Below are positions 4,141 to 21,203 of a stretch of DNA of 34,084 nucleotides, piece after piece; within the stretch, counting starts at the first letter, position 1, and the number at the start of each line of letters is the position of its first letter. Position numbers and translations under genes: made by a program. This DNA is from Marinobacterium arenosum. Its GTDB lineage: Bacteria; Pseudomonadota; Gammaproteobacteria; Pseudomonadales; Balneatricaceae. The notes under the pieces are model-generated. The model did no database searches, was not told the DNA's origin, and saw nothing but the letters and a program-made list of their open reading frames with translations. The stretch lies in contig NZ_JAILYN010000049.1 in assembly GCF_019795155.1 (NCBI RefSeq), positions 1-34,084 on the forward strand, given 5' to 3'.

Positions 4141-4152
4141 ATGTGTACACAT
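4141..4152. promoter_or_regulatory. GntR-type operator palindrome ATGTGTACACAT
   Basis: A perfect 12-bp palindrome whose core TGTGTACA matches the TGTRTACA core found at ten other sites in the window. It lies 157 nt upstream of the permease start codon. The form agrees with the known GntR-family operator pattern (GT..AC inverted halves). Assignment to the GntR protein encoded at 13789 is inference. Confidence 0.6.
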
Positions 4153-4368
4153 GGTTGGTTTTTGTTAACCGGTCCTATGGAAAAGTGAACTTAAGGATGT
4201 CGGGCTGATTGGAGGAAAGGCCTTGTTGTCTGGGTAAAATGGTGCCAAAAGGCGCTAATGCGCTTGTATGTGACGGGTTGGCTATTTGAGTGGGCGAGCT
4301 GCGCCGGGGAATCAGATCCGTGGTTCTGACTTGGTAGTGCGGATTTGAATCGATATATTGTCTTTTAC

Positions 4369-4378
4369 TTGTACACAA
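4369..4378. promoter_or_regulatory. GntR-type operator TTGTACACAA
   Basis: This reads TTGTGTACAA on the minus strand, identical to the boxes at 9117 and 13363. It lies in the spacer between the puuD terminator and the permease start. Confidence 0.6.
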
Positions 4379-4460
4379 ATATCTTGATTGTTGTATTGGT
4401 CGGCTATGAATGTCGCTTGACTTGACCGCTGCCAGGCATGGCCTTTGGAAAGGTGGTGGC

Positions 4461-4491
4461 AAATCAAAAAAGACCGCGCCCGAAGGCGCGG
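4461..4491 (-). terminator. Rho-independent terminator of the puuE-uraD-alc-allA-puuD operon
   Basis: A perfect stem, 4474-4480 CCGCGCC with 4485-4491 GGCGCGG, closes a four-base loop (TTCG on the minus strand). It is followed on the minus strand by a T-rich run (4465-4471 is A-rich on the plus strand). It lies about 85 nt after the puuD stop codon. Confidence 0.85.
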
Positions 4492-4574
4492 AAACCGCAC
4501 ATCGACAGATTGCATTGGGGAGGGCTTTGGGACCCTGCGCACAGGTTCCCGGGGTCTCTGGCGTTTCTGCTGTC

Positions 4575-5780
4575 TTAACGTACCTCTGCGCCCTGTTGAA
4601 TCCACAGGCCCAGCAGGTCACGTTCCGCTTTGGTCATCTGGGTGATATTGCCCAGCGGCATCGCCTCGGAGGCCACACTTTGCGCCTGGATGCGGGCAGC
4701 CTGCTGCCGGATCTGCTCCGGGCTGTCGAACATCACGCCTGCCGGCGCACTGGTGAACATGCTGCTGGTCGGATTGGCCGAGTGGCAAACCGTGCAGCGT
4801 TCGGCAATAACCGTGGAGACAGTTTCAAACGTCACCGAGCTACTCACGCCTCCGTGTTGCGCAGTCGGTGCCTGGGGGGCGATCGTGGACTGCGGCGCGG
4901 AGACGAACGCCAGTGCAATCATACCGACCGCAGCGGCCGGCAGGGTCCAGGCGTACTTCTGAGTCTCGTGACGGGTGTTGAAGTAGTGGCGCACCAGTAC
5001 GCTCAGCACTGCAATACCGGCCAGAATCGCCCAGTTGTATTCACTGCCGTAGGTGCTCGGGAAGTGGTTGCTGATCATGATGAACAACACCGGCAGCGTG
5101 AAGTAGTTGTTGTGACGGGAGCGCAGCAGGGCCTTGGCGGGCAACACCGGGTCCGGCTCGCGGTTCTCTTCGATCGCTTTTACCAGCGCGCGCTGGCCCG
5201 GCATGATGATGCGGAACACGTTGCCGACCATGATGGTGCCGATGATGGCGCCGACATGGATGTAGGCGGCGCGGCCGCTGAAGACCTGGCTGAAGCCCCA
5301 GGCGGCGGCGATGATCAATACGAAGATCAGAGCACCCAGCAGGGCAGGCTGCTTGCCCAGTGCCGAATCGCACAGGAAATCGTAGATGAACCAGCCGGCG
5401 ATCAGCGCGGCGACACTGATGCCGATCGCGGTGGTGGCACCGATGCCGGAGCCCGGCGCGATCAGGTAGAGTTCAGCATTGAGGTAGTACACGATGGCCA
5501 GCAGGGTAACGCCGCTGATCCAGGTGAAATAGGCTTCCCATTTGAACCAGTGCAGGTTGTCCGGCATCTTCGGCGGTGCCAGCTTGTATTTTTCCAGGTG
5601 ATAGATACCACCACCGTGGATCGCCCAGAGGTCGCCGGACAGGCCTTCGCGGGGAGTGCGCCGGTCCAGGTTGTTCTCCAGCCAGACAAAATAGAAGGAT
5701 GCGCCGATCCAGGCGATACCGGTAATCATATGTACCCAGCGCACTGCCAGGTTGAGCCATTCGGTTACATGGGGATCCAT
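4575..5780 (-). CDS. puuD: Urate hydroxylase PuuD (membrane urate oxidase fused to cytochrome c)
   Basis: The 401-residue product has an N-terminal membrane domain of the PuuD type (about residues 1-295, with some 8 hydrophobic segments and the motif VRWVHMITGIAWIG near residues 13-26). A short linker leads to a C-terminal cytochrome c domain. The heme motif is C329-T-V-C332-H333, and M374 in EAMPLGN is the likely axial ligand. The family oxidises urate to 5-hydroxyisourate in the inner membrane and passes electrons to cytochrome oxidase, so no oxygen-derived peroxide is made. The ATG has GAGGAG 7 nt upstream. It is the last gene of the allantoin operon. No soluble uricase is visible in the window, so this is the only candidate for the step. 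Confidence 0.93.
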   Translation of the reverse strand: MDPHVTEWLNLAVRWVHMITGIAWIGASFYFVWLENNLDRRTPREGLSGDLWAIHGGGIYHLEKYKLAPPKMPDNLHWFKWEAYFTWISGVTLLAIVYYLNAELYLIAPGSGIGATTAIGISVAALIAGWFIYDFLCDSALGKQPALLGALIFVLIIAAAWGFSQVFSGRAAYIHVGAIIGTIMVGNVFRIIMPGQRALVKAIEENREPDPVLPAKALLRSRHNNYFTLPVLFIMISNHFPSTYGSEYNWAILAGIAVLSVLVRHYFNTRHETQKYAWTLPAAAVGMIALAFVSAPQSTIAPQAPTAQHGGVSSSVTFETVSTVIAERCTVCHSANPTSSMFTSAPAGVMFDSPEQIRQQAARIQAQSVASEAMPLGNITQMTKAERDLLGLWIQQGAEVR

Positions 5781-5848: not shown

Positions 5849-6346
5849 TCAGGGCGCGAGAACGATGCTGCTCTCGTCGCCGAAGAAGTACTCATCGCAG
5901 TTGTGGCCTTCGCCGGCCCGGTCCACCACCAGGAAGTCATCCTCCGGTTGCAGCGCCAGAATCGGGTGGTGCCAGACGCCGCGGTGGTAGTTGACGCCCT
6001 GGCGACCGTTGCTGATAAAGGCACGCAACTCGCCGCTGTCGACCTCATCGCCTTTCGGCGCCACCACAATCAGAAACGGATTGCCGTTCAGTGGAATAAA
6101 GGCCTGGCTGCCCAGCGGGTGGCGTTCCACCATCTTGATGCTCAGCGGATAGTCCAGCATCTGTGCCCGGAATATGCTGATGATCGGGCGGCCACCTCCG
6201 TCAGCTACTTCCACCTCGGCCAACTGGTGGTAGCGCTGGGTCGAGCCGTTGTTGATCGGGAAATGGTCCCGGCCCTCGGTTTCGATCACATCGCCAAACG
6301 GGGCGAAGGCTTCAGCGGTCAGCGGTTCAATCGTCAGGGTTGTCAT
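5849..6346 (-). CDS. allA: Ureidoglycolate lyase
   Basis: The 165-residue product matches the AllA family over its length (usual length about 160-170). Recognisable segments are [11 protein letters not shown] near residue 12, [19 protein letters not shown], and [12 protein letters not shown] in the cupin-like barrel. It splits ureidoglycolate into glyoxylate and urea, the last step of this pathway. It starts 12 bp after the allantoicase stop codon, behind a G-rich ribosome site, so the two are probably translated from one message. Nothing looks damaged. Confidence 0.93.
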
Positions 6347-6358
6347 CGCGGCCCCCTG

Positions 6359-7348
6359 TTACTTGCTGATCTTGCCGAACAGGCGCAAACGGCTGATGCC
6401 ACCATCCGGGAAGATGTTCAGACGTACGTGGGTGACCGGGCCCAGCTTGTTGATCTGCTCGGCAAATTCATGCTCCTGGTGCGCCTGCAGCTTCTGCGAG
6501 GGCAGCAGTTCGCTCCAGTAGAGGCTCTGGGTTTCGATCTGCTCGTCGGTGCCGCCTTTGACGAAGGCCGCCTGGATCGAGCAGCTGTCCGGGTAGTTGC
6601 CCTTGAAATGGTGGGTGTCGACCAGGATGCGGTCGATCTCGCCCGGATGGCCCAGCGCCAGGATCACCCAGTCATTGCCCGGCGTGCGGCGGCGGGCGGT
6701 TTCCCAGCCATCTCCCATGTTTACGCCGCGGCCCGGGTTGATGATGTTGCTCATCCGGCCGAAGTGTTCGTCGTTGCAGGCCAGTGCGCGACCGCCGTTC
6801 AGCGCGGCGGCCAGGTCGATGCTTTCGTCCGCACTCTGCAGCGACCAATCCCGGTGCGGAATACCGTAGACCCGCAGGCGTGCGACGCCGCCATCCGGGT
6901 AGATGTTCAGCCGCAGGTGGGTCCAGGGGCGGCCATCGTTAATGGCGTGCAGATGGTGGCTGTCGCCCTGCAGGCTGACGGCCGGCAGCAGTTCCTGCCA
7001 CTGGGTGTCCTCGTTCGGATCCCCTTCGGGGCAGAAGCAGGCGTCGATGGAGGCCGACGGCGGATAGTTGCCGGTGAAATAGCTGGTGTCGATATCGATC
7101 CCTTTAACGGTGCCCGGCACGCCCAGCCGGACGATCGCGTAGTCGTAGCCTTCGTGCCGTTTACGGCGGGATTCCCAGCCATCCATCCATTTGCCGTTAT
7201 CGTCGTATACGCCCTCTTTCCAGACCGGTGCGTCCGGCTGCAGCATGCGGTTTACCTCGGCAAACCAGTCGTCGGTGACGTAGATCGCCTTGCTGTCCAG
7301 TCTGGCATCGGCCAGGTTGACGTACTTTTCGAAGTTATTTGTTGTCAT
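6359..7348 (-). CDS. alc: Allantoicase
   Basis: The 329-residue product is an allantoicase, which hydrolyses allantoate to ureidoglycolate and urea. The protein shows the family's internal duplication: DGWESRRKR...[17 protein letters not shown] in the first half is echoed by DGWETARRR...[17 protein letters not shown] in the second half. Length is normal for the family. It lies between uraD and allA on the same strand, 47 bp after the uraD stop codon. Allantoicase, rather than the ammonia-releasing AllC route, means that urea is the nitrogen product; no urease genes are in the window. Confidence 0.95.
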
Positions 7349-7395: not shown

Positions 7396-7917
7396 TTACA
7401 GGTCGCGCAGGCGGAACAGCGCGATCTTGTTGATCTCCTGCAAAGCCCGTTCGAACTCCTGTTCGTGGCTGTGATGGATACGCTCTTCAAACGCCGCCAG
7501 GATCTGGAACCGGTTGCTGCCTTTCACCGCCATGATGAACGGGAAACCGAATTTCTCTTTGTACGCCGTATTGAGTGAGGTAAAGCGCTGGAACTCCTCC
7601 TCGTTGCACTCATGAATGCCGGCACCGGCCTGTTCAGAGGTCGAGGCCTCGGTCAGCTCGCCGCGGATCGCTGCCTTGCCGGCCAGATCCGGGTGGGCAT
7701 TGATCAATGCCAGTTGCGCCTCTTTATCGCTGTTCAGCAGGATGCCGGACATCAACTGATGCAGATCGTCGATGCCGTTATGGCTGTCGTTCAGACCGCT
7801 GTCCCAGGCCTGCTCCGCCACCCAGGCGGAGTGCTCATAGATATCGCCGAATACCTCTGTAAAGGCCTCGCGCGACATCTCGCTGGGGGTGCAGCTCTGA
7901 AAACGGGGGCTACTCAT
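7396..7917 (-). CDS. uraD: OHCU decarboxylase
   Basis: The 173-residue product is 2-oxo-4-hydroxy-4-carboxy-5-ureidoimidazoline decarboxylase, which makes S-allantoin. Family marks are [12 protein letters not shown], with the catalytic histidine, the following ELTEAST..EQAGAG segment, and FPFIMAVKG near the C-terminal third. I choose the ATG at 7917, whose A is also the last base of the puuE stop codon (TGATG), so translation is probably coupled. A TTG just upstream at 7920 would add one residue. Confidence 0.93.
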
Positions 7918-8837
7918 CAAACGCTCTCCTTTTTAAACGGGTGGTGCTCGTGCCAGTGACGGGCAATATCAATTCGGCGGCTGAACCAGACCCCGTGGTG
8001 ACCCTGGGCATAGCGGATAAACCGCTCCAACGCGGCGATGCGGCCTGGACGGCCCGCCAGTCGGCAGTGCAGACCGATCGACATCATCTTCGGCGCCTCG
8101 GCGCCTTCCTCGTACAGGGTGTCGAAGCTGTCCTTCAGGTACTGATAGAACTGCTCGCCGCTGTTAAAGCCCTGAACCGTGGCGAAACGCATGTCGTTTA
8201 CGTCCAGGGTGTAGGGAATCACCAGGTGAGGCTTGTCTTCGCCTTCCACCCAGTAGGGCAGGTCGTCGTCATAGGCGTCGGAGTCGTATAGAAAGCCGCC
8301 TTCCTGCATCACCAGTTTGCGAGTGTTCGGGCTGTTGCGACCGGTGTACCAGCCCAGCGGGCGTTGGCCGGTTACCTTACGGATGATCTCGATCGCCCGC
8401 TGCAGGTGGTCGCGCTCTTCGGACTCGTCCATATATTGGTAGTCGATCCAGCGGTAGGCGTGGCTGCAGATCTCATGGCCGGCCTTGACCATGGCGCGGG
8501 CGACTTCAGGATGGCGCTCGATCGCCATCGCCACCGCAAACACGGTCAGCGGGATGTCGTACTTGTTGAACAGCTTGAGCAGGCGCCAGACGCCGGCGCG
8601 GCTGCCGTATTCATAGATCGACTCCATGCTCATATGGCGCACGCCCGCCAGCGGTTGGGCCGAGGGCATCTCGGACAGGAAGGCTTCCGATTCCGGGTCG
8701 CCGTGCAGCACGCAGCGTTCGCCGCCCTCTTCGTAATTCAGCACAAACGAGACCGCAATCCGTGCGTTGCCAGGCCATTCGGGATGGGGAGGGTTTGCAC
8801 CGTAGCCGATCAGGTCGCGTGGATAAGTGTCACTCAC
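7917..8837 (-). CDS. puuE: Allantoinase PuuE (polysaccharide deacetylase-like)
   Basis: The 306-residue product belongs to the NodB-fold allantoinase family (PuuE), which opens allantoin to allantoate and is unrelated to the amidohydrolase allantoinase AllB. Recognisable segments are DLIGYGANPPHPEWPG at residues 8-23, VLNYEEGGE, GHEICSHAYRWIDYQ with the NodB-type histidine, and SIGLHCRLAGRPGR. The start codon is GTG, with AAGGAG six bases before it. It is the first gene of the five-gene operon ending with puuD, and two operator palindromes lie about 90-110 nt upstream. Confidence 0.95.
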   Translation of the reverse strand: MSDTYPRDLIGYGANPPHPEWPGNARIAVSFVLNYEEGGERCVLHGDPESEAFLSEMPSAQPLAGVRHMSMESIYEYGSRAGVWRLLKLFNKYDIPLTVFAVAMAIERHPEVARAMVKAGHEICSHAYRWIDYQYMDESEERDHLQRAIEIIRKVTGQRPLGWYTGRNSPNTRKLVMQEGGFLYDSDAYDDDLPYWVEGEDKPHLVIPYTLDVNDMRFATVQGFNSGEQFYQYLKDSFDTLYEEGAEAPKMMSIGLHCRLAGRPGRIAALERFIRYAQGHHGVWFSRRIDIARHWHEHHPFKKESV

Positions 8838-8923
8838 AGTCGACTCCTTGCGAAACGGGTTGATAGTTATTGAGAACCATACGTTTCATGTTTGTATCCG
8901 CATAATTCTATTGTAGTCAATCT

Positions 8924-8946
8924 TTGTATACTTGGATTGTATACAT
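8924..8946. promoter_or_regulatory. Tandem GntR-type operators upstream of puuE
   Basis: TTGTATACTT (8924-8933) and TTGTATACAT (8937-8946) lie head to tail with a 13-bp step. The same 13-bp step is seen upstream of the enolase gene. The pair is 87-109 nt upstream of the puuE GTG and overlaps the region where a promoter would be expected. Confidence 0.65.
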
Positions 8947-9115: not shown

Positions 9116-9127
9116 ATTGTGTACAAT
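9116..9127. promoter_or_regulatory. GntR-type operator ATTGTGTACAAT upstream of uraH
   Basis: A 12-bp near-perfect palindrome, identical in its core TTGTGTACAA to the boxes at 13363-13372 and, on the other strand, 4369-4378. It lies about 160 nt upstream of uraH, in an AT-rich stretch fit for a promoter. Confidence 0.65.
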
Positions 9128-9285: not shown

Positions 9286-9636
9286 ATGGGTTATCTAACA
9301 ACACATGTACTGGATTCAGCACACGGTCTGCCGGGTAAGGGGATCCAGGTAAAACTGTTTCAGGTGGGCACGCAGCGTGAATTGCTGAAGGTGGTTCAGA
9401 CCAATGCCGATGGCCGGGTGGATGAGCCGCTGTTGCAGGGTGAAGCGTTTAAAGCCGGCGTCTACGAGCTGGAATTCGACGTCGCCGCCTACTACCGTGC
9501 TATGGGGCTGGAACTGCCCGAGCCTGCGTTTCTGGGCGACGTGGTCCTGCGTTTCGGTATCGCCGACGAGGCGGAGCACTACCATGTTCCGTTGCTGATC
9601 TCGCCCTACAGCTATTCTACTTACAGAGGTAGCTGA
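9286..9636 (+). CDS. uraH: 5-hydroxyisourate hydrolase (transthyretin-related)
   Basis: The 116-residue product hydrolyses 5-hydroxyisourate, the product of PuuD, to OHCU. The family signature is complete: TTHVLD with H7, GRVDEP with R44, EHYHVPLLISPYSYSTYRGS at the end including H98 and the diagnostic C-terminal YRGS. The absence of a signal peptide points to the cytoplasm. An in-frame TAA just before the ATG fixes the start, yet no good ribosome site precedes it. It is followed 103 nt later by an AzgA-type permease and is divergent from the other genes of the pathway. Confidence 0.95.
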   Translation: MGYLTTHVLDSAHGLPGKGIQVKLFQVGTQRELLKVVQTNADGRVDEPLLQGEAFKAGVYELEFDVAAYYRAMGLELPEPAFLGDVVLRFGIADEAEHYHVPLLISPYSYSTYRGS

Positions 9637-9679: not shown

Positions 9680-9739
9680 GCTCCTTCTGTACTGTTGGCC
9701 GCCTGATTGATGCTGATCTTTAAATCAGGGTGCTTAGCG

Positions 9740-11092
9740 ATGGCCAGCGTGAATCCCCCGGAAAATCCCAACGACTCCTCCCCCCGTTCAGCCAGCCCTG
9801 CGCTGCTTGACCGCTGGTTTCTGCTGACCGAACACGGCACCACCCCCGGTCGTGAACTGATCGCCGGCGTGACCACCTTCCTGACCATGGCGTACATCAT
9901 CTTTGTGAATCCCAATGTGCTGTCGGCAGCCGGCATGGATCATGGTTCGGTTTTCGTGGCGACCTGCCTGGCGGCGGCCATCGGCAGCCTGATCATGGGC
10001 GTGTATGCCAATTACCCGATTGCGCTGGCGCCCGGCATGGGCTTGAACGCCTTCTTCAGCTTTACCGTGGTGGGCGAGATGGGCTACAGCTGGCAGGTGG
10101 CGCTGGGGGCGGTGTTCCTGTCCGGTGTGATGTTCCTGCTGCTGAGTATCTTCCGGGTGCGCGAGTGGATCATCAACAGCATTCCACTGTCATTGCGGAT
10201 GGCGCTGTCGGCCGGCGTCGGCCTGTTTCTGGGGATCATTGCGCTGAAAACCGCCGGCATCGTCGTGGACAGTCCCGCCACCCTGGTCACCCTGGGCGAT
10301 CTGACCGCGCCGGAGCCGTTGCTGGCCGGACTCTGTTTCATTGTCATCACGGTGTTGACCTTCCGCCGGGTGACTGGGGCGGTAATGATCGGCATCCTGT
10401 TCGTCACCCTGATCGGCCTGGCTGGCGGGCTGGTGCGGTATCAGGGGCTGGTGTCGGCGCCGCCGAGCCTGGCGCCGACAGTGCTGCAGCTGGATATCGC
10501 CGGGGCCTTCGATGTGGCGATGATCAGCGTGATCTTTTCGTTCCTGTTCGTTGACCTGTTCGATACCGCCGGCACGCTGATCGGGGTGGCCCATCGTGGC
10601 AATCTGCTCGATTCGAAGGGGCAGCTGCCGCGCCTGGGGCGGGCGCTGATGGCGGACAGTTCGGCCAGTATCTGCGGTTCGCTGCTGGGCTCGTCGACCA
10701 CCACCAGCTATGTCGAGAGTGCCGCCGGGGTCGAAGCCGGCGGGCGCACCGGACTGACCGCCGTGGTGGTGGCGCTGCTGTTTCTGGCGGGGATGTTTTT
10801 TGCGCCCCTGGCGGCGATGGTGCCGGCTTATGCCACGGCGGGGGCGTTGTTCTTCGTGGCGGTGATGATGACCAGTGGGCTGGGCAGAATAGACTGGCAC
10901 GATCTGACAGAAGCGGCGCCGGCGGTGGTGGCGGCGGTGATGATGCCGCTGTCGTTTTCGATCGCCAACGGCATCGCGCTGGGTTTTATCACCTACACCG
11001 CGATAAAACTCGGCTGCGGCCATTACCGGGATATCTCCGCCAGCGTCTACGTGCTGGCGGCGCTGTTTATCCTGAAGTTCGCCGTGCTGTAG
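9740..11092 (+). CDS. AzgA-type NCS2 purine permease (copy 1)
   Basis: The product is a 450-residue inner membrane permease of the AzgA-like branch of NCS2 (adenine/guanine/hypoxanthine importers). Family marks are ELIAGVTTFLTMAYIIFVNP near residue 38, LAPGMGLNAFF, FDTAGTLIGVAH, and TTSYVESAAGVEAGGRTGL. I prefer the ATG at 9740 (MASVNPP), preceded by an AGGG-containing site; an upstream ATG at 9710 has no ribosome site. It probably shares the uraH transcript. A second copy, similar along its whole length, lies at 11878-13248 in the opposite direction. The exact base transported cannot be told. Confidence 0.9.
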   Translation: MASVNPPENPNDSSPRSASPALLDRWFLLTEHGTTPGRELIAGVTTFLTMAYIIFVNPNVLSAAGMDHGSVFVATCLAAAIGSLIMGVYANYPIALAPGMGLNAFFSFTVVGEMGYSWQVALGAVFLSGVMFLLLSIFRVREWIINSIPLSLRMALSAGVGLFLGIIALKTAGIVVDSPATLVTLGDLTAPEPLLAGLCFIVITVLTFRRVTGAVMIGILFVTLIGLAGGLVRYQGLVSAPPSLAPTVLQLDIAGAFDVAMISVIFSFLFVDLFDTAGTLIGVAHRGNLLDSKGQLPRLGRALMADSSASICGSLLGSSTTTSYVESAAGVEAGGRTGLTAVVVALLFLAGMFFAPLAAMVPAYATAGALFFVAVMMTSGLGRIDWHDLTEAAPAVVAAVMMPLSFSIANGIALGFITYTAIKLGCGHYRDISASVYVLAALFILKFAVL

Positions 11093-11100: not shown

Positions 11101-11715
11101 TTATCGGCTCAGGGCCGCGAAAGTGCCGGCGCCGACGAAGATCGCGGCGGTAACCCGGTTGAACGCCCGGCGGCGGTGGGCGGCGGTGAGTGCCGGGGCC
11201 GCCAGCTTGGCAAAACCGCCATAGAACAGCTTGCACAGCAGGTCGGCTACCGCCCAGGTGGCGATCATCACCAACAACTGCGGCATCAGTAATGCTTCCG
11301 GATTGATGAACTGTGGTAGAAACGCCAGGAAGAACAGGATGTCCTTCGGGTTGCTGGCGGCCAGGGTGAAGGCGCGCCAGAACAGGGTTCCGAAGCGTGC
11401 ATTCTGGCTTGCCTTCAGCTGGGCATCGCCGGTCGGCTCCTTCCAGCTGCGGTAACCGAGGTAGATCAGGTACAGCGCACCGCCGATCTTGAGCGTGGTG
11501 AACAGCTGCTCTGACGCGGTAATGAAGGCCGCCAGACCGGTGGCGGACAGGCTGAGCAGCAACAGCGATGCGCTGACACCGCCCAGGAACGCAGGCGCGG
11601 AGCGGACCAAGCCATAGTTGAGGGTGTTGGCCACCATCAACAGAGACAGCGGCCCGGGAATCAGGATCACGAAAAAGGTGGCCGAGGTAAACAGCAGCCA
11701 GGTATCGAGCGACAT
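11101..11715 (-). CDS. LysE/RhtB-family exporter
   Basis: The 204-residue product has about six hydrophobic segments and the LysE-family pattern: PGPLSLLMVANTLNYG near residues 21-36, LIYLGYRSWK, and NPKDILFFLAFLPQF. The family exports amino acids or similar small solutes. It is convergent with the permease before it (8 bp between stop codons) and lies between two AzgA-type permeases, but nothing shows that its substrate is a purine. No operator palindrome lies in front of it. Confidence 0.85.
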   Translation of the reverse strand: MSLDTWLLFTSATFFVILIPGPLSLLMVANTLNYGLVRSAPAFLGGVSASLLLLSLSATGLAAFITASEQLFTTLKIGGALYLIYLGYRSWKEPTGDAQLKASQNARFGTLFWRAFTLAASNPKDILFFLAFLPQFINPEALLMPQLLVMIATWAVADLLCKLFYGGFAKLAAPALTAAHRRRAFNRVTAAIFVGAGTFAALSR

Positions 11716-11877: not shown

Positions 11878-13248
11878 TTACAGGAACACGAACTTGGCGA
11901 CGAAGATTGCCGTCAGCACATAGATGCTGAGGGAGATCTGGTCGCGCTGGCCGGTCAAAAGTTTCAGTACCGTGTAGGTGACGAAGCCCATGGCGATGCC
12001 GTTGGCGATGGAGAAGGTCAGCGGCATCATCACCACGGTGACGATTGCCGGGATGGCATCGCTCATCTCCTTCCACTCGATGTGACCCATGCCGGTCATC
12101 ATCAGCATGGCGACATAGATCAGCGCACCGGCGGTGGCATAGGCCGGTACCATGCCGGCCAGCGGGGCGAGGAACATCGCGGCCACGAAAAGCGCACCGA
12201 CCACGATGGCGGTCAAGCCGGTCCGGCCGCCGGCAGCGACGCCGGATGCACTTTCCACATAGCTGGTGACCGGGGCACAACCAACGGCGGCACCGGCCAC
12301 GCTGGAGACGCTGTCCGCTTTCAGGGCCTTGCTCAGGTTTTCGATATAACCGTCTTCGCGGATCAGGTTGGCACGGTGCGCCACCCCCATCAGGGTGCCG
12401 GCGGTGTCAAACATGTTGACGAACAGGAATGCCAGGATCACGCTGATCATCCCCACATCCAGGGCACCGGCGATATCCAGCTGCCACAGGGTAGGGGCCA
12501 GGCTCGGCGGCATGGATACCAGGCCGTTATATTCCACCATACCCAGAGTCCAACCGATAAAGGTTACCGCCAGGATGCTGATCAGTACCGCGCCGAATAC
12601 GTTGCGGTAGGACAGTACCGCGATCATCAGGAAGCAGATCGCTGCCAGCAGGGCTGTGGGTTGGGTGAAAGTCCCCATCGAAAGCAGGGTTACCGGGTTG
12701 TCGACGACGATGCCGGCGGTCTTCAGGCCGATCAGGCCCAGGAACAGGCCGACACCGGCGCCCATCGCAAAGCGCATGCTCATCGGGATGCTGTTGATCA
12801 GCCATTCCCGAATCTTGTAGATACTCATCAATACGAAGAGCACCCCGGAGATAAATACCGCGCCCAGCGCAACCTGCCAGTCGTAGCCCATCTCGCCGAC
12901 CACGGTGTAGGTGAAGAACGCGTTCAGGCCCATGCCGGGGGCAAGGCCAACCGGCCAGTTGGCATAGAGGCCCATCAGGAAGCAGCCCAGAGCGGCGCCG
13001 ATGCAGGTGGCTACAAAGGCGGCGCCATGGTCGATACCGGAGTCTGCCATGATGTTGGGGTTCACGAAGATGATGTAGGCCATGGTGACAAAGGTTGTCA
13101 GGCCGGCGATCAGTTCGGTACGTACGTTGGTATTGTGTTCTTTCAGCTTAAAGAAGCGATCAAGAAATCCACGGTTGTGTTGTTCGCTTTCCACGAACTC
13201 AGAGCTTAATTGTTCTTGTTTAACGCTATCCACAACATGTGTCCTCAT
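11878..13248 (-). CDS. AzgA-type NCS2 purine permease (copy 2)
   Basis: The 456-residue product is a second AzgA-like purine permease and a close paralogue of the one at 9740: ELIAGLTTFVTMAYIIFVNP, LAPGMGLNAFFTYTVVGEMGY, FDTAGTLMGVAHRANL and TSYVESASGVAAGGRTGL align without gaps over long stretches. It carries an N-terminal extension of about 35 polar residues. The ATG at 13248 has a poor ribosome site; a GTG at 13233 sits at a good distance from GAGGA and could be the true start. Two operator palindromes lie 91-124 nt upstream, so it is probably its own regulated transcript, closed by the terminator at 11804-11837. Confidence 0.9.
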   Translation of the reverse strand: MRTHVVDSVKQEQLSSEFVESEQHNRGFLDRFFKLKEHNTNVRTELIAGLTTFVTMAYIIFVNPNIMADSGIDHGAAFVATCIGAALGCFLMGLYANWPVGLAPGMGLNAFFTYTVVGEMGYDWQVALGAVFISGVLFVLMSIYKIREWLINSIPMSMRFAMGAGVGLFLGLIGLKTAGIVVDNPVTLLSMGTFTQPTALLAAICFLMIAVLSYRNVFGAVLISILAVTFIGWTLGMVEYNGLVSMPPSLAPTLWQLDIAGALDVGMISVILAFLFVNMFDTAGTLMGVAHRANLIREDGYIENLSKALKADSVSSVAGAAVGCAPVTSYVESASGVAAGGRTGLTAIVVGALFVAAMFLAPLAGMVPAYATAGALIYVAMLMMTGMGHIEWKEMSDAIPAIVTVVMMPLTFSIANGIAMGFVTYTVLKLLTGQRDQISLSIYVLTAIFVAKFVFL

Positions 13249-13674: not shown

Positions 13675-13684
13675 GTGTGTACAA
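13675..13684. promoter_or_regulatory. GntR-type operator upstream of gntR (autoregulation)
   Basis: GTGTGTACAA contains the shared TGTGTACA core and lies about 105 nt upstream of the regulator gene's first ATG. It suggests that the regulator controls its own synthesis, which is common in the family. Confidence 0.55.
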
Positions 13685-13788: not shown

Positions 13789-14550
13789 ATGCTAGAGACT
13801 GAAACCGCGATGTCTTTAAACGAGAAATTGCAGACCAAAATGCCGCCAAAAGCGGTAGCGGGGACCAGCAAGGCCGGTACCCAGGACGATATCGTCTATG
13901 CCCACATTTTTGACGCCATCCTGGAGCAGCGATTGGCGCCGGGCACCAAGTTGAACGAAGAGGCGCTGGGTGAGATCTTCGGTGTCAGCCGCACGGTGAT
14001 TCGCCGCGCCCTGTCACGGCTGGCCCATGAGCAGATCGTGGTGTTGCGGCCCAACCGCGGTGCCGTGGTCGCCAGCGCGACCATCGACGAGGCGAAACAG
14101 ATCTTCCTGGCGCGCCGGGTGGTGGAAAAGGCGATCATCGAGCAGGCGGTGGAGCATGCCACCGCGGAACAGATCGACGTGATCAAAGGGATGGTGGAGG
14201 AGGAGCGGGCCTGCTTCGACCGCGGTGACCGCGGCGCCGGTATCCGCTTGTCCGGCGAGTTCCACCTGCAGCTGGCGACGATGGCCAACAACGCACCGCT
14301 GTTGAACTTCCAGCGCAGCCTGGTCTCCCAGACCTCGCTGATCATTGCCCAGTATGAAAGCGGTGGCAAAACCCACTGCTCTTACGACGAGCATTACCAG
14401 TTGATCCGGGCGATCGAAGAGGGCGACAAGGCCAAGGCGGTCCGCCTAATGATGCATCACCTCGATCATATCGAAGGAAAGCTGAATCTGGACGGCGAGG
14501 GCGCTTCCGATGATCTACGGGCGGTGTTCTCCCATCTGATCAGCAAGTAA
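13789..14550 (+). CDS. GntR-family transcriptional regulator, FCD type; likely regulator of purine catabolism
   Basis: The 253-residue product has a winged helix-turn-helix at about residues 35-95 (IFDAILEQRLAPGTKLNEE, then LGEIFGVSRTVIRRALSRL as the recognition helix region, and a wing VVLRPNRGAVVA). An all-helical FCD effector domain follows, ending with a HLDHIEGKL segment typical of the family. FCD regulators bind small organic acids or related metabolites and usually repress. The start may be 13789 or the ATG at 13810; neither has a strong ribosome site. It lies in the middle of the purine genes, and a TGTRTACA palindrome precedes it and every purine operon. The role and effector are inferred. 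Confidence 0.88.
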   Translation: MLETETAMSLNEKLQTKMPPKAVAGTSKAGTQDDIVYAHIFDAILEQRLAPGTKLNEEALGEIFGVSRTVIRRALSRLAHEQIVVLRPNRGAVVASATIDEAKQIFLARRVVEKAIIEQAVEHATAEQIDVIKGMVEEERACFDRGDRGAGIRLSGEFHLQLATMANNAPLLNFQRSLVSQTSLIIAQYESGGKTHCSYDEHYQLIRAIEEGDKAKAVRLMMHHLDHIEGKLNLDGEGASDDLRAVFSHLISK

Positions 14551-14729: not shown

Positions 14730-16037
14730 TTAACCGCGCTGGTAAACGCAGCGGCCGGCGGCATAGGTTTCGAAGATGGTACGGTCGTCACCCAGCGTGG
14801 CCAGTACGAACAGGTTCTCATCCAGCGATTTGACCTGCTGCATGCGGTAATCCAGCAGCGGTGTCGCCTGGTAATCCAGTACCACGAAGTCCGCTTCCTT
14901 GCCGTTGGCGAAGCTGCCGATCTTGTCGTCCAGTCGCAGCGCTTCGGCGCCACCCAGGGTGGCCAGGTAGAGCGACTTGAACGGGTGCAGTTTTTCGCCC
15001 TGCAGCTGCATCACCTTGTAAGCTTCGTTCAGCGTGTGCAGGATCGAGAAGCTGGTGCCGGCGCCAACGTCGGTGCCCAGCCCCACGTTCACACCGTGCT
15101 GTTCCATCTTCGGCAGGTTGAACAGGCCGCTGCCCAGGAACAGGTTGGAGGTGGGGCAGAAGGCGATGGCCGAGCCCTTGTCCGCCAGCTGCTGGCATTC
15201 TTCGTCGCACAGGTGGATGCCGTGGGCGAATACCGAGCGCTCGGTCAGCAGGTTGAAGTGCTGGTAGACGTCGAGGTAGCTGCTGCGATCCGGGAACAGC
15301 TCCAGCACCCACTCAACCTCTTTCTGGTTCTCGGACAGGTGGGTATGCATGTAGAGGTCGGGGTACTCGTGCAGCAGTTGGCCGGCGATCGCCAGTTGTT
15401 CATCGGTGCTGGTCGGCGCGAAACGGGGCGTTACCGCGTAGTGCAGGCGGCCTTTGCCGTGCCAGCGTTCGATCAGCTCCTTGCTGTCCTGGTAGCCGGA
15501 TTCCGGCGTATCCAGCAGGTAGTCCGGCGCGTTACGGTCCATCAGTACCTTGCCGGCGATCATCCGCAGATTGTAGCCCTCGGCCACCTCGAAGAACGCA
15601 TCGACCGATTCCTTGTGCACGGTGCCGAACACCAGCGCGGTGGTGGTGCCGTTGCGCAGCAGTTCGGTCAGGAACCGCTCGGCGACATCCTTGGCGTGCT
15701 GACGGTCCTCAAACTTGCCCTCGGCCGGGAAGGTGTAGTTGTTGAGCCAGTCGAGCAGCTGTTCGCCGTAGGAGGCGATCATCCCGGTCTGCGGAAAGTG
15801 GATATGGGTATCGATGAAGCCGGGCACGATCAGCGAGCGTTGATATTCCGTCACCGTGACATTCTCCGCCAGGGTGGGCAGCAGTTCCTGTGCATGACCG
15901 ACCGCCTTCACCAGGCCGTTCTCGACGACCAGCAGGCCATCCTCGAAGTACTCGACCGAATTCTCGAGGCCGACTTTGGCCGGATCGCCCAGGCTGTGAA
16001 CAATGGCGGAACGATAGGCCTTGGTGGATTGATTCAT
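14730..16037 (-). CDS. guaD: Guanine deaminase
   Basis: The 435-residue product is an amidohydrolase of the guanine deaminase family, turning guanine into xanthine. Marks are PGFIDTHIHFPQT with H78 and H80 as metal ligands, YGEQLLDWLNNYTFPAE, MHTHLSENQKE, FAHGIHLCDEE and GLGTDVGAG with the metal-binding aspartate. Length fits the family. It is the last gene of the probable xdhA-xdhB-xdhC-guaD operon (69 bp after the xdhC stop), so its product goes straight to the dehydrogenase encoded ahead of it. Confidence 0.95.
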   Translation of the reverse strand: MNQSTKAYRSAIVHSLGDPAKVGLENSVEYFEDGLLVVENGLVKAVGHAQELLPTLAENVTVTEYQRSLIVPGFIDTHIHFPQTGMIASYGEQLLDWLNNYTFPAEGKFEDRQHAKDVAERFLTELLRNGTTTALVFGTVHKESVDAFFEVAEGYNLRMIAGKVLMDRNAPDYLLDTPESGYQDSKELIERWHGKGRLHYAVTPRFAPTSTDEQLAIAGQLLHEYPDLYMHTHLSENQKEVEWVLELFPDRSSYLDVYQHFNLLTERSVFAHGIHLCDEECQQLADKGSAIAFCPTSNLFLGSGLFNLPKMEQHGVNVGLGTDVGAGTSFSILHTLNEAYKVMQLQGEKLHPFKSLYLATLGGAEALRLDDKIGSFANGKEADFVVLDYQATPLLDYRMQQVKSLDENLFVLATLGDDRTIFETYAAGRCVYQRG

Positions 16038-16106: not shown

Positions 16107-16961
16107 TCAGGCCACCTGATGAATAGGGTTGGTGTTCGCTTTTTTCGTCTTTCGCTCACTGCTGTCCCCGGATTCCGCCTGCTCGCCAAAGTTGGCGTTG
16201 TAACGGGCGATCACTTCGCCGGCCACCGATACGGCGATTTCGGCCGGCAGTTTGCCTTTCACCATCGGCAGGCCGAGCGGGCAGACCATCTTGTCGATCA
16301 CCGCGTCGCTGAACCCCTTGGCGCGCAGCCGGTGTTCGAACTTGGCGCGCTTGGTGCGCGAGCCGATCAGGCCGTAGTAGCCGAAATCATCGCGCCGCAG
16401 AATCCGTTCGGTCAGCTCCTGGTCCAACTGGTGATTGTGGGTCATCACGATGTAGTAGCTGCCGGCCGGCATATCGTCGATCTCATCGACCGGGAACTCG
16501 GTGACCACCTTGTCGACCCCCTCGGGGATCTGGCTCGGAAACTCGCCGTCACGGGAGTCGATCCAGCGCACCCGGCAGGGCAGGGAGGCGAGGATCGGCA
16601 CCAGTGCGCGGGCCACATGGCCGGCACCGAACAGCGCGATATGCAAAGGCGCCTGGCCGACCGGCTCGAACAGCAATGAGGTGGCGCCACCGCAACACTG
16701 GCCCAGGCTGGCGCCCAGCGAGAAGCGCTCGAAGCGGGTTTCGCCGACACCCTCGGCCAGCATCTGGCGGGCGATCTTGATCGCCTTGTGTTCCAGATGG
16801 CCGCCACCGATGCTGTCGAAACTGCGGTTGGCGGTGACCACCATCTTGCTGCCGGAGTTGCGTGGCGTGGAGCCTTTCTCCTCGACGACGGTCACCATCA
16901 CGCAGGGTTTACCGGCCTGGCGCAGGTTGGCGACGGTGGTAATCCAGTTATCTGTACTCAT
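16107..16961 (-). CDS. xdhC: Xanthine dehydrogenase accessory protein XdhC
   Basis: The 284-residue product is XdhC, which binds and sulfurates the molybdenum cofactor and inserts it into xanthine dehydrogenase. Typical segments are VTVVEEKGSTPRNSGSKMVV near the N-terminus, GGGHLEHKAI, GASLGQCCGG with the paired cysteines, and LFGAGHVARALVPIL as a Rossmann-like nucleotide motif. I set the start at the ATG at 16961 (MSTDNW), with AGAGG nine bases upstream; an earlier in-frame ATG at 16985 would add eight residues. A hydrophilic C-terminal tail of about 25 residues is unlike the core and may vary between species. Confidence 0.93.
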   Translation of the reverse strand: MSTDNWITTVANLRQAGKPCVMVTVVEEKGSTPRNSGSKMVVTANRSFDSIGGGHLEHKAIKIARQMLAEGVGETRFERFSLGASLGQCCGGATSLLFEPVGQAPLHIALFGAGHVARALVPILASLPCRVRWIDSRDGEFPSQIPEGVDKVVTEFPVDEIDDMPAGSYYIVMTHNHQLDQELTERILRRDDFGYYGLIGSRTKRAKFEHRLRAKGFSDAVIDKMVCPLGLPMVKGKLPAEIAVSVAGEVIARYNANFGEQAESGDSSERKTKKANTNPIHQVA

Positions 16962-17093
16962 TGCTGTTGGCCTCTTGGTGAGCAAAGGCTCTTATTTTTT
17001 GGCTGCCGGCTGGCCGGCAGCGGAGTTAGTGGCTGCCCTGTGCGGCACAGTGGCATGGCTGCGCCGCGCGGGGCCGGTTTACGCGCCTCGGTG

Positions 17094-19487
17094 TCAGACC
17101 GTGGCCGCCGCCGGGGCGGGCTGGTCTTGAGCAACGGCCTGTTTCAGCGACTCGACCGCCCAGAGCACCCGTTCCGGTGTCGCCGGCGCATCGATCTGCG
17201 GGCTGACGCGGTAGTTCGCCACGCTGGCCACCGCGTCCTTGATGGCACAGAACACCGAGATGCCGAGCATGAACGGCGGCTCGCCCACCGCTTTGGAGTG
17301 GAACACCGTGTCTTCCTTGTTGCGGCGGTTTTCCACCAGTCGCACCCGGAAATCGATCGGCATGTCCGCCACCGCCGGAATCTTGTAGCTGGCCGGGCCC
17401 GCGGTCATCAGCCGGCCCTGGTCGTTCCAGACCAGCTCTTCGCTGGTCAGCCAGCCGGCACCCTGGACGAAGGCGCCTTCCACCTGGCCGATATCGATCG
17501 CCGGGTTCAGCGAGGCGCCCACGTCGTGCAGGATGTCCGCCCGCAGGATCTTGTACTCGCCGGTCAGGGTATCGACCACCACCTCGGAGCAGGCCGCGCC
17601 GTAGGCGTAGTAGTAGAACGGCCGGCCGCGCGCCTTGTCGCGGTCGTAGTAGATCTTCGGCGTGCGGTAGAAACCGGTGCTCGACAGCGAGATCTGATGG
17701 AAGTAGGCCAGCTGGATCAGCTCCTCGAACGGCATGATCTGGTCGCGGATGATCACGTGGTTGTTCTGGAACACCACATCCTCTTCGGTCACGTCGAAGT
17801 GGCGGGCGGCGAACTCGACCAGCCGCTGGCGGATGGTGATCGCCGCGTTCTGCGCCGCCTTACCGTTCAGGTCGGCGCCGGAAGACGCCGCCGTCGGCGA
17901 GGTGTTCGGCACCTTGTCGGTGTTGGTGGCGGTGATCTGGATGCGATCGATATCCACCTGGAACTCTTCGGCGACGATCTGCGCCACCTTGGTGTTCAGA
18001 CCCTGGCCCATCTCGGTACCGCCGTGGTTCAGGTGGATGCTGCCGTCGGTGTAGACATGGATCAGCGCGCCGGCCTGGTTCAGGAAGGTGGCGGTAAAGG
18101 AGATACCGAACTTCACTGGCGTCAGCGCCAGACCTTTTTTCAGGATCGGGCTGTGGCGGTTGTATTCGGCGATCTCTTTCCGGCGCTTCTGGTACTCGCA
18201 GTTCTGCTCCAGATCGGCGATCAGCTCCGGCAGGATGTTGTCTTCCACCTTCTGGTAGTAATGGGTGTGGTCGCGACCCTCGTCGCCGTACAGGTTACGC
18301 TTGCGGATCTCCAGCGGATCGACGCCGATACGACGGGCGATATCGTCCATGATGATCTCCGGCATGATCAGACCCTGCGGGCCGCCAAAACCACGGTAGG
18401 CGGTGTTGGAGGCGATGTTGGTCTTGCAGCGGTAACCGGTGATGGTGGCATCGCCCAGGTAGTAGCCGTTGTCGGCGTGGAACATTGCCCGGTCGATGAT
18501 CGAGTTGGACAGGTCCGGCGAGTAGCCGCAGTTACCGGCCAGCTTCATCTCGACGCCCTGCAGAATGCCCTGGTCGTTGTAGCCGACGTCATACTGGTTG
18601 AAGAACGGGTGGCGCTTACCGGTGATCATCATGTCTTCCATGCGCGGCAGACGCATCTTGGTCGGTCGGCCGGTCAGTCGGGCGATCACCGCCGCGATGC
18701 AGGCCGGCCCGGCCGCCTGGCTCTCCTTGCCGCCGAAGCCGCCGCCCATGCGGCGCATGTCGACCACCACCTTGTTGAACGAGATGCCCAGCACTTCGGC
18801 AACCAGTTTCTGAACCTCGGTCGGGTTCTGGCTGGAGGTGTACACCAGCATGCCGCCGTCTTCGGTCGGGATCACCGAGGAGATCTGGGTTTCCAGGTAG
18901 AAGTGCTCCTGGCCGCCGATATGAACCGCGCCCTGGATACGGTGGGGCGCTTTGGCCAGTGCCGCCTTGGAATCGCCACGCTGGTGGGTGTGCGGATCGC
19001 TGACGTAGCTCTCCTTCTCCAGCGCATCTTCGACCGACAGCACCGGTTCCAGCTCTTCATATTCGATAATCGCCGCCATCGCCGCCTTGCGGGCGGTTTC
19101 CAGGCTGTCGGCGCCGACCGCGATCACCGGCTGGCCGACATATTCAGCCTTGCCGTCCGCCAGCAGCGGGTCGCCCGGCAGCACGCAGCCGATATCCAAC
19201 TGGCCCGGCACGTCTTCGGCGCTGATGGCGATGGCCACGCCCGGAATTTCATAACAGGGCGACAGGTCGATACGGGTGATCCTGGCATGGGCGCGGTCGC
19301 TCATGCGGGCATAGGCGTGCAGCTGATTCGGAAATTCCAACCGGTCGTCGATATAGACCGCCTCGCCGGTTACCTGTTTGGCGGCGCTCTCATGTTTGAC
19401 CTTGCGGCCAACACCGGTTTGCAGCTCCTGCTTGGCCTGCGCCAGCATCTCTTCAACCGTTTTTTTCGTGCTCTGATGGTTAGACAT
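17094..19487 (-). CDS. xdhB: Xanthine dehydrogenase, molybdopterin-binding large subunit
   Basis: The 797-residue product is the catalytic subunit that oxidises hypoxanthine and xanthine to urate at the molybdenum centre. Visible marks are the aldehyde oxidase/xanthine dehydrogenase hammerhead region in the first 150 residues, MGGGFGGKE, YRGFGGPQG for cofactor binding, and KAVGEPPF with the catalytic glutamate at about residue 736. Length is normal for the bacterial split enzyme. Its ATG overlaps the end of xdhA by 8 nt, so translation is probably coupled. Nothing suggests damage. Confidence 0.96.
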   Translation of the reverse strand: MSNHQSTKKTVEEMLAQAKQELQTGVGRKVKHESAAKQVTGEAVYIDDRLEFPNQLHAYARMSDRAHARITRIDLSPCYEIPGVAIAISAEDVPGQLDIGCVLPGDPLLADGKAEYVGQPVIAVGADSLETARKAAMAAIIEYEELEPVLSVEDALEKESYVSDPHTHQRGDSKAALAKAPHRIQGAVHIGGQEHFYLETQISSVIPTEDGGMLVYTSSQNPTEVQKLVAEVLGISFNKVVVDMRRMGGGFGGKESQAAGPACIAAVIARLTGRPTKMRLPRMEDMMITGKRHPFFNQYDVGYNDQGILQGVEMKLAGNCGYSPDLSNSIIDRAMFHADNGYYLGDATITGYRCKTNIASNTAYRGFGGPQGLIMPEIIMDDIARRIGVDPLEIRKRNLYGDEGRDHTHYYQKVEDNILPELIADLEQNCEYQKRRKEIAEYNRHSPILKKGLALTPVKFGISFTATFLNQAGALIHVYTDGSIHLNHGGTEMGQGLNTKVAQIVAEEFQVDIDRIQITATNTDKVPNTSPTAASSGADLNGKAAQNAAITIRQRLVEFAARHFDVTEEDVVFQNNHVIIRDQIMPFEELIQLAYFHQISLSSTGFYRTPKIYYDRDKARGRPFYYYAYGAACSEVVVDTLTGEYKILRADILHDVGASLNPAIDIGQVEGAFVQGAGWLTSEELVWNDQGRLMTAGPASYKIPAVADMPIDFRVRLVENRRNKEDTVFHSKAVGEPPFMLGISVFCAIKDAVASVANYRVSPQIDAPATPERVLWAVESLKQAVAQDQPAPAAATV

Positions 19488-20919
19488 ATGCGGTCACCCG
19501 TGTTTCGACTTCTATTACCTGGCTTTCGACGAAGTAGCGCTGCAGCATGTTGCGGGCTGTCAGCATCCGGTAGTCCTTGGAGGCGCGGAAATCGGAGATC
19601 GGTGCGAAATCCTGCTCCAGGGCAGCCATCGCTTTGGCAATAGTGGCCTGATTCCAGTGTGAGCCGAGCAGCGTCTGCTCGCAATGTCGGGCCCGTTTCG
19701 GGATGGCGGCCATGCCGCCGAATGCGATGCAGGCGTCGGTTACCACGCCATCATCGACGGTGATACTGAGTGCCGCCAGTACGGCGGAGATATCGTCATC
19801 CAGCCGCTTGGAGATCTTGTAGGCGCGGAACCGGTCCACGGCGCCGGCGCGCGGCACGATCACCTTCTCGATAAACTCGGACGGCTGCAGCTGGGTGACC
19901 TTGTAGTCGACGAAGAAATCCTCCAGCGGCATGGTGCGGCGCTGGTCGCCTTTGCGTAGCACGACCTGCGCTTTCAGGGCGATCAGCGCCGGCGGCGAGT
20001 CACCGATCGGTGAGGCGTTGCCGATGTTGCCGCCCAGGGTGCCCTGGTTGCGCACCTGCAGCGAGGCAAAGCGGTGCAGCAGGGCGCCGAAATCCGGGTA
20101 GTCGGCGGTGAGCGCGTCGTAGCACTGGCTCAGCGATGCCGCAGCCCCGAGCTCGATGCGGTCGTCGAACACCTCCACCTGCTTCAGTTCGGCGATATCG
20201 CCGACGTAGATCATCGCCGGCAGTTCGCGATGGAACTGGGTCACTTCCAGCGCCAGGTCGGTACCGCCGGCCAGCAGGCGGGCCTCGGGATACTGCAGGA
20301 ACAGTTCCGCCAGCTCGGCGGTGGTTTTCGGGTTGTGGCAGTGGCGTTTGTCCAGCGCCAGGCTGGGCGTATCAGTGCGCTGCAATGCTTTCAGTCGCTG
20401 TACGGTGGCCTGTTCGTTACGCTGGAACTGGTCGGCGCCGGCATCGTCGTACATGGCGTTGGCGGCATCGACGATCGGCCGGTAGCCGGTACAGCGGCAC
20501 AGGTTGCCGGCCAATGCTTCCAGCACCTCTTCCTTATCCGGCTCGGCGTTGTTCTTGCCCAGCGCGAACAGCGACATCACGATGCCGGGGGTACAGAAGC
20601 CGCATTGAGAGCCGTGACAATCCACCATCGCCTGTTGGGACGGGTGAAGTTTGTCCTTGTCCTTCAGGTCTTCGACCGTAATCAACTGCTTGCCGTCCAG
20701 CGCCGACACGAAGGTCAGGCAGGAGTTGATGCTTTTATAGCGCAGCTGATCGCCGTCGAGTTCAGCCAGTACCACTGTACAGGCGCCGCAGTCTCCCGAA
20801 GCACACCCCTCTTTCGTACCGGTCTTACGTACATGCTCACGCAGATAGTTCAGCACCGTCATGTTGGGGTCGAGAGTGTGCTCCTCCCTCAATTCCTGAT
20901 TCAGTAAGAACTTAATCAA
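19480..20919 (-). CDS. xdhA: Xanthine dehydrogenase, iron-sulfur/FAD small subunit
   Basis: The 479-residue product carries the electron-transfer centres. The plant-type [2Fe-2S] site has C39, C44, C47 and C67 (EGCASGDCGACTVV). The second [2Fe-2S] helical domain has C106, C109, C141 and C143 (QCGFCTPG and CRCTGYRP). A FAD domain follows (LLAGGTDLALEV; GGNIGNASPIGDSPP). The start is a TTG at 20919, chosen because AGAGGAG stands 7-8 nt before it and because the ferredoxin fold needs the MIKFLLN strand; the next ATG would cut into it. It heads the xdhA-xdhB-xdhC-guaD operon, with an operator palindrome about 40 nt upstream of the start codon. Confidence 0.95.
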   Translation of the reverse strand: MIKFLLNQELREEHTLDPNMTVLNYLREHVRKTGTKEGCASGDCGACTVVLAELDGDQLRYKSINSCLTFVSALDGKQLITVEDLKDKDKLHPSQQAMVDCHGSQCGFCTPGIVMSLFALGKNNAEPDKEEVLEALAGNLCRCTGYRPIVDAANAMYDDAGADQFQRNEQATVQRLKALQRTDTPSLALDKRHCHNPKTTAELAELFLQYPEARLLAGGTDLALEVTQFHRELPAMIYVGDIAELKQVEVFDDRIELGAAASLSQCYDALTADYPDFGALLHRFASLQVRNQGTLGGNIGNASPIGDSPPALIALKAQVVLRKGDQRRTMPLEDFFVDYKVTQLQPSEFIEKVIVPRAGAVDRFRAYKISKRLDDDISAVLAALSITVDDGVVTDACIAFGGMAAIPKRARHCEQTLLGSHWNQATIAKAMAALEQDFAPISDFRASKDYRMLTARNMLQRYFVESQVIEVETRVTAYV

Positions 20920-20955
20920 GGGGGCTCTCCTCTTTGTATTTATTATTTAATTGGA

Positions 20956-20965
20956 TGGTATACAT
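20956..20965. promoter_or_regulatory. GntR-type operator TGGTATACAT upstream of xdhA
   Basis: It contains the GTATAC core shared with the other boxes and lies 37-46 nt upstream of the xdhA TTG, where a bound repressor would block the promoter or early elongation. Confidence 0.55.
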
Positions 20966-21180
20966 TGATTTAAGTGAAAGCTGACTTCTAAGTCAAGATG
21001 GAATTTGACTCACGGGTCAGAAAAATGGCCATCCTGACAAATTTTCATGATTCCTCTCGATCGGCACGCTGAACGCAGCAGCAGGGCAGTGACCGCTCGT
21101 CTGTAGCAGGTTGGCGAAGTTGCTGGCGTCAACGCCGTTGAGTCAGCCCGCGGGCGCATGCTGGCAGTGGGATGATTAAT

Positions 21181-21203
21181 ATGTATACATTAAATGTATA
21201 CAA
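21181..21203. promoter_or_regulatory. Tandem GntR-type operators upstream of the enolase gene
   Basis: ATGTATACAT (21181-21190, a perfect palindrome) and ATGTATACAA (21194-21203) stand with a 13-bp step, exactly the step seen upstream of puuE. They are 147-169 nt upstream of the enolase ATG. Confidence 0.65.

Follow-up and report, generated by a model that had tools for sequence, protein, structure and literature searches.

A conserved palindromic box marks a candidate UgmR-type GntR regulon for purine breakdown in Marinobacterium arenosum and also precedes a third enolase gene

Introduction

Regulators that answer to purine breakdown products include AllR of Escherichia coli, which belongs to the IclR family, and the urate sensors PecS and HucR, which belong to the MarR family; all three differ in protein family from the GntR/FCD regulator described here. 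AllR is stated to sense allantoin and glyoxylate in a title of a reference list, and PecS is described in a passage of PMC12288460 as answering urate and xanthine. The closest described system is UgmR (PA1520) of Pseudomonas aeruginosa. According to the passages of PMC12694930 that deal with this protein, UgmR (i) binds upstream of gcl and of the PA1513-PA1518 allantoin cluster and represses both; and (ii) has its repression relieved by uric acid, not by allantoin (citing Xu et al. 2022). The same passages report that allantoin, too, induces gcl in P. aeruginosa, apparently by a route other than UgmR. PA1520 was in addition named among regulators tied to the stringent response and persister pathways in an excerpt of PMC13086498, and it does not occur in the main text of the SELEX atlas (PMC8041468). 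The titles listed by a literature search with the letters of the motif examined below concern vectors, viruses, eukaryotes, or other subjects unrelated to it.

Results

A purine-to-glyoxylate locus with a GntR/FCD regulator at its centre

The stretch of DNA analysed here (the window, 34,084 nt) corresponds to the entire contig C60 of a genome of 4.80 Mb in 115 contigs. Profile matches identified a locus of purine-to-glyoxylate genes, which extends from guanine deaminase and xanthine dehydrogenase through allantoin degradation and is accompanied by an enolase gene, as follows:

2521-3984, minus strand: first permease, NCS2 xanthine-type (pbuX; TIGR03173), start inferred near 3984
4575-5780, minus strand: PuuD-type membrane urate oxidase (PF06181)
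5849-6346, minus strand: ureidoglycolate lyase (NF002949)
6359-7348, minus strand: allantoicase (TIGR02961)
7396-7920, minus strand: OHCU decarboxylase, uraD (TIGR03164)
7917-8837, minus strand: allantoinase PuuE (TIGR03212)
9286-9636, plus strand: hydroxyisourate hydrolase, uraH (TIGR02962)
9707-11092, plus strand: NCS2 permease (PF00860)
11101-11715, minus strand: LysE-type exporter (PF01810)
11878-13248, minus strand: NCS2 permease, divergent from gntR (PF00860)
13789-14550, plus strand: GntR/FCD regulator, UgmR-like (PF00392, PF07729)
14730-16037, minus strand: guanine deaminase (TIGR02967)
16107-20919, minus strand: xdhC, xdhB and xdhA, xanthine dehydrogenase (TIGR02964, TIGR02965, TIGR02963)
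21350-22636, plus strand: enolase, third genomic copy (TIGR01060)

The assignment of the gene at 13789 to the GntR/FCD group in the initial annotation was borne out by matches to PF00392 (62.6 bits, cut-off 27) and PF07729 (78.4 bits, cut-off 24.3), which place a GntR winged helix at the N-terminus and an FCD domain at the C-terminus. The metal-binding site of the FCD subfamily is formed by one Asp/Asn and three His; in 16 aligned sequences H159, H202, and H224 were found to be invariant, and the residue four positions before H159 was an invariant Ser (S155). Matches to the regulator at E <= 1e-20 were detected in 24 of 57 genomes, the window genome included, of which four (best match 37-43% identical) are probably paralogues. 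Among the best 80 of 562 stretches kept, the relatives were mostly from Pseudomonas at 69-74% identity, and that of Amphritea balenae reached 79% over part of its length. The regulator may be considered a probable orthologue of PA1520 on the basis of locus layout and of these Pseudomonas relatives. As in P. aeruginosa, a GntR-family regulator adjoins a purine permease (there PA1519) and allantoin genes (there PA1513-PA1518), and the gene order is the same in the Pseudomonas relatives; candidate operators likewise precede the allantoin genes (8937 and 9117) and gcl. Unlike the UgmR system, gcl is here on another contig and divergent from the gene for malate synthase A.

Neither the regulator nor puuE was found at the cut-offs used in three genomes of the same genus (G001, G002, and G003, the last only 71% complete), and thus the purine locus appears patchy within the genus. 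Beside the enolase gene (22938-25515), a LuxR-type regulator is divergent from an FAD-dependent monooxygenase with no box between them, and a protein that combines EAL and HDOD domains is encoded at 26410-27636.

Box sites in the spacers of the purine locus

The initial annotation had described a palindromic TTGTRTACAA box and reported 11 matches to its core TGTRTACA, with one change allowed, in five spacers. All 11 were detected within one base of the reported positions, part of which mark starts of the 10-mer and part starts of the 8-mer core; the sites occupy four spacers of the purine locus rather than five, namely those upstream of the first permease, between puuE and uraH, between the permease and gntR, and between xdhA and the enolase gene. 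The full 10-mer TTGTRTACAA is exact at 3 of the 11 sites (4369, 9117, and 13363). Scores in the list below are from a weight matrix built on 313 sites from relatives (189 distinct 20-mers), which were picked by the pattern TTGTNNACAA with at most one mismatch, such that the matrix is independent of the sites of the window, not of the motif.

4141-4151: box ATGTGTACAC, with palindrome TGTGTACACA at 4142-4151, upstream of the first NCS2 permease; score 7.5
4369-4378: exact box TTGTACACAA, distal upstream of the same permease; score 17.1
8911-8946: puuE-side boxes TTGTATACTT (8924) and TTGTATACAT (8937), 13 bases apart, and a weaker box TTGTAGTCAA (8911), 13 bases beyond 8924
9117-9126: exact box TTGTGTACAA, uraH side of the puuE-uraH spacer; score 19.9
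13339-13348: box TGGTATACAA, downstream of the predicted -10 of the divergent permease; score 10.0
13363-13372: exact box TTGTGTACAA, between the predicted -35 and -10 of the divergent permease; score 18.8
13675-13684: box GTGTGTACAA, upstream of gntR; score 12.1
20956-20965: box TGGTATACAT, 37 bases upstream of the xdhA open reading frame; score 9.7
21181-21203: tandem boxes ATGTATACAT (21181) and ATGTATACAA (21194), 13 bases apart

The open reading frame at 2521-4152 seems to cover site 4142; its 5' extension is probably spurious, with a start of the first permease near 3984 more likely than at 4152. The box at 13675 makes autoregulation of gntR possible. A lone CG-centred TTGTCGACAA was also noted at 31441-31450, distant from the purine locus.

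Box counts against chance

The exact core TGTRTACA was found as 12 strand-matches at 8 distinct places in the window, compared with a mean of 0.53 and a maximum of 3 in shuffled sequences (n = 100). Within the four spacers (2,008 bases) there were 9 exact core starts, a count in which the palindrome at 4142/4144 is entered twice, whereas dinucleotide shuffles averaged 0.06 with a maximum of 3 (n = 2,000); when one mismatch was allowed, 13 core starts compared with a mean of 1.8 and a maximum of 7 (500 shuffles). The initial annotation had proposed a genome-wide scan, and this placed 8 distinct exact cores in the window contig versus 21 in the remaining 4.77 Mb, the expectation for the contig being 0.15 places (Poisson tail 6e-12); the core is thus clustered in the window contig and not equally common elsewhere. 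Seventeen of the other 21 were inside open frames of at least 150 codons and four were outside such frames; one of the 17 is the gcl promoter, where the only such frame is one of 153 codons at the gcl start. Exact TTGTRTACAA occurred at five places in 4.8 Mb, including three in the window, one at gcl, and one on contig C59 inside an open frame of 436 codons. At a score of at least 7, the matrix recovered 10 of the 11 window sites (8924 was missed) and gave 13 matches in the window in total, 12 of these within the four spacers. The same cut-off returned 24 matches, three of them in the gcl stretch, in 159 kb of other DNA of the genome that had been chosen for holding the core, such that this rate is biased upwards.

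The looser patterns behaved differently. With one mismatch, the core gave 36 strand-matches in the whole window, a modest excess over shuffles (mean 19.2, maximum 32), and was found at six places inside genes (5036, 5731, 15995, 16953, 18050, and 18837) and in one spacer other than the four (33777). Genome-wide, no enrichment was detected for TTGTNNACAA (31 places versus 64 for the reversed pattern) or for TTGTRTACAA with one mismatch (65 on each strand versus 61 and 54). These results would be consistent with AT-rich spacers yielding such palindromes through base composition, yet the shuffled spacers, which average 0.06 exact cores against the 9 observed, and the conservation of the boxes in relatives described below leave this explanation a negligible probability. 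For the exact core, a chance origin was ruled out by the shuffles, the rest of the genome, and the reversed motif; the looser patterns are outside this statement.

Conservation of the boxes in relatives that carry the regulator

Conservation was scored in 98 loci, consisting of the best 80 of 562 stretches and 18 others, with L052 (from G032, a genome of the same family as that of the window) and L088 (Marinobacterium profundum) among them representing the same genome (identical 600-base stretch). All were fetched via the regulator, and because they were fetched for holding it, they cannot show absence of the box in its absence. Exact TTGTNNACAA was present within 300 nt upstream of puuE in 66 of 66 relatives (reversed motif, 1/66), of uraH in 63 of 66 (0/66), of the gntR-side permease in 65 of 68 (0/68), and of gntR in 79 of 92 (0/92). 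The comparison of orthologous loci that had been suggested with the original proposal therefore found the box conserved at these four promoters. By the same measure, the box was found upstream of xdhA in 1 of 82 relatives and of the first permease in 2 of 10; it was not detected within 300 nt upstream of the second permease (0/1), xdhB (0/82), xdhC (0/86), guaD (0/88), lysE (0/23), uraD (0/65), alc (0/27), allA (0/65), or urate oxidase (0/64). The reversed motif was found exactly at allA (1/65) and urate oxidase (2/64) and, puuE aside, at none of the others. Since related sequences are not independent, the puuE-uraH spacers sharing under 15% of their 8-mers were taken as a subset, and the exact box was present in 24 of 24. 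Two boxes were found in 52 of 64 puuE-uraH spacers at a median distance of 184 bases; those of the window at 8937 and 9117 are 180 apart. When the search was widened to 450 nt, 5 of 10 first-permease relatives had the exact box (control, 0/10), a count of 10 that left out 41 other matches at <=55% identity; four of these five boxes had the centres GC, TC, GG, and GG, and one had AC. By sequence comparison, the conserved set of candidate targets is the puuE operon, uraH, the gntR-side permease, gntR, and gcl (see below).

The regulator orthologues of Pseudomonas and of the family relatives were found with the same purine locus and the same boxed promoters. The proposal of a GntR regulon is supported by this recurrence of the box at the same promoters in the regulator loci of relatives; it is very probably right, and already known in kind from UgmR. 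Co-occurrence was also examined in 37 genomes without a close regulator, a group that includes four (G008, G012, G022, and G025) with 37-43% identical GntR matches. Nine carried puuE, in 10 copies, and the exact box was found at 1 of the 10, with one-mismatch sites of other centres at two further copies. This test is weak because several of the puuE genes seem internal to operons. One genome (G014) keeps TTGTATACAA between puuE and uraH (L224, 9279), while no GntR match was found genome-wide at E <= 1e-20 and no UgmR-like gene within 20 kb around the box; the box may be either a relic or under a changed regulator.

The boxes could also be genuine operators of a different FCD regulator, or be shared among several. 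FCD proteins commonly use GT..AC palindromes, and operators of this type in other GntR/FCD systems have two-fold symmetric TTGT/ACAA half-sites around a two-base centre. Seven other FCD matches were detected in the genome, and the puuE box of G014 is without a detectable counterpart of the regulator. Against this reading, the box accompanies the 13789-type locus down to 45% identity (among loci chosen via the regulator), and the FCD paralogue on contig C28 has TTGTCGACAA, TTGTCGACAT, and TTGTCGACAC nearby, and so may use a CG centre instead of the RT centre seen here. The other six FCD loci, searched 1,500 nt to either side, were without exact TTGTNNACAA, and passages of PMC12694930 report binding of these promoters by UgmR itself. 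We thus regard a different or shared FCD regulator as improbable.

A perfect box at the gcl promoter on another contig

Outside the window, only one promoter in the genome has a perfect TTGTRTACAA box. This box is at C51:35883-35892 and starts 37 nt before gcl (glyoxylate carboligase), with two weaker boxes further upstream towards the divergent malate synthase A gene. After gcl come, in this order, genes resembling those for hydroxypyruvate isomerase, tartronate semialdehyde reductase, and glycerate 2-kinase (the last an assignment below the cut-off of the model), then a pyruvate kinase gene, a gene for a phosphatase of the HAD type, and a gene similar to those of urea transporters.

Among 37 genomes of the family and order, gcl was detected in six, each of which also has the regulator; among 24 genomes drawn from the loci of the 80 relatives, it was detected in 21. 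A box starting 35-37 nt before gcl was present in 24 of 32 rows, or 23 of 30 distinct copies, the window genome included; in 22 of those 24 rows, a further box with no more than one mismatch lies between -154 and -185. By set, the box starting 35-37 nt before gcl was found in 20 of the 21 gcl-bearing genomes of the 24-genome sample and in 4 of the 6 gcl-bearing family and order genomes, with one genome common to both. The seven distinct copies lacking the box comprised (i) four distinct second copies, presumably under other control, from G005 and three genomes of Marinobacterium; and (ii) the sole copies detected in three genomes that do have the regulator (G020, G055, and P. borbori). The boxless second copies (L074, L075, and L211-L213) are 80-81% identical to the gcl of the window genome.

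Boxes before xdhA and a third enolase gene

That a box marks every purine operon holds within the window, while the xdhA box is not conserved in relatives. Within 450 nt upstream of xdhA, an exact box was found in 2 of 82 relatives (reversed control, 1/82), and a third relative carries ATGTACACAA; all three are genomes of the same family (G034, G029, and G007). With one mismatch, the box was present in 13 of 82 relatives compared with 17 for the reversed control.

The genome encodes three enolases: that of the window, one on C61 beside pyrG, and one on C23 beside the genes for pyruvate kinase and triose-phosphate isomerase. The tandem boxes at 21181 and 21194 lie 147-169 bases before the ATG of the window enolase at 21350, and neither is an exact TTGTNNACAA. 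Of the 22 enolase loci examined in 15 genomes, only the window copy has the exact core in the 400 nt upstream. The window enolase is predicted to be probably active, because it aligns with the two other copies throughout the conserved stretches. Glycerate 2-kinase forms 2-phosphoglycerate, which is the substrate of enolase. The gcl cluster, which includes the pyruvate kinase gene, encodes every step between glyoxylate and pyruvate other than enolase, and a urate-controlled enolase would close this gap. We consider it somewhat more probable than the opposite that a third enolase dedicated to this route, and perhaps malate synthase A, has been drawn into the regulon, placing under one repressor an unbroken chain from guanine and xanthine through urate, glyoxylate, and phosphoenolpyruvate to pyruvate. 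The boxes before xdhA and the third enolase gene are new and differ from the UgmR regulon as described in the passages of PMC12694930; they are not conserved in relatives, and their regulatory role is putative. The word enolase was not found in PMC12694930, and no mention of an enolase in such a regulon was found among the listed titles and abstracts of open PMC papers.

Proposed mechanism and ligand

The boxes are, with high probability, operators of the GntR/FCD repressor at 13789, a local counterpart of UgmR that would be released by urate; both repression and release are modelled on the P. aeruginosa reports. A dimer of the repressor would bind the two TTGT half-sites of TTGTRTACAA and block the promoters of the operons for purine import, urate degradation, and xanthine dehydrogenase, as well as those of gntR itself, the enolase gene, and the gcl cluster on its separate contig, with control of xdhA and the enolase gene the more tentative parts. 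Urate formed from imported purines would then bind the FCD domain and release the repressor, switching on the route from purines through glyoxylate to phosphoenolpyruvate and pyruvate. Placement of two boxes is as expected of a repressor, since 8937 overlaps the predicted -10 of puuE and 13363 lies between the predicted -35 and -10 of the divergent permease, where the predicted promoters are weak and are consensus matches only. None of the promoters predicted at the first permease and between xdhA and the enolase gene overlaps a box. The 13-base spacing of the boxes at puuE (8911, 8924, and 8937) and the enolase gene (21181 and 21194) may allow cooperative binding.

Allantoin, ureidoglycolate, glyoxylate, and urate had all been put forward as ligands. 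A UgmR counterpart that answers mainly to one of the first three would fit with the extension of the box set to glyoxylate use (gcl, glycerate 2-kinase-like, and pyruvate kinase genes) and with the induction of P. aeruginosa gcl by allantoin reported in passages of PMC12694930. The same source, however, attributes relief of UgmR repression to uric acid and not to allantoin, and the regulator is 69-74% identical to its Pseudomonas relatives; we therefore find a main response to another metabolite unlikely, and by analogy to UgmR urate is the likeliest of the four. We regard the system as very probably one more member of the UgmR regulon, modestly extended by the boxes at the enolase gene and xdhA. 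Read in this manner, the UgmR regulon is carried beyond Pseudomonas to the family that includes Marinobacterium, and its conserved operator makes the regulon recognisable in genome sequences. A naturally occurring set of promoters that respond to urate is also suggested. The enolase boxes suggest that such a regulon can grow by picking up a spare glycolytic enzyme that closes a gap in the pathway.

Related sites elsewhere in the genome

Three TTGTCGAC-type sites, including one exact TTGTCGACAA, were observed near the FCD gene on contig C28 of the window genome (G000; L079, positions 2165, 2237, and 2778), and these may represent paralogue-specific operators that differ at the two central bases. 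On contig C39 (L035, positions 3964 and 4942), ATGTATACAT and TTGTATGCAA were detected upstream of a trans-3-hydroxy-L-proline dehydratase gene; these sites were left out of the regulon count and perhaps form the operator of another FCD regulator.
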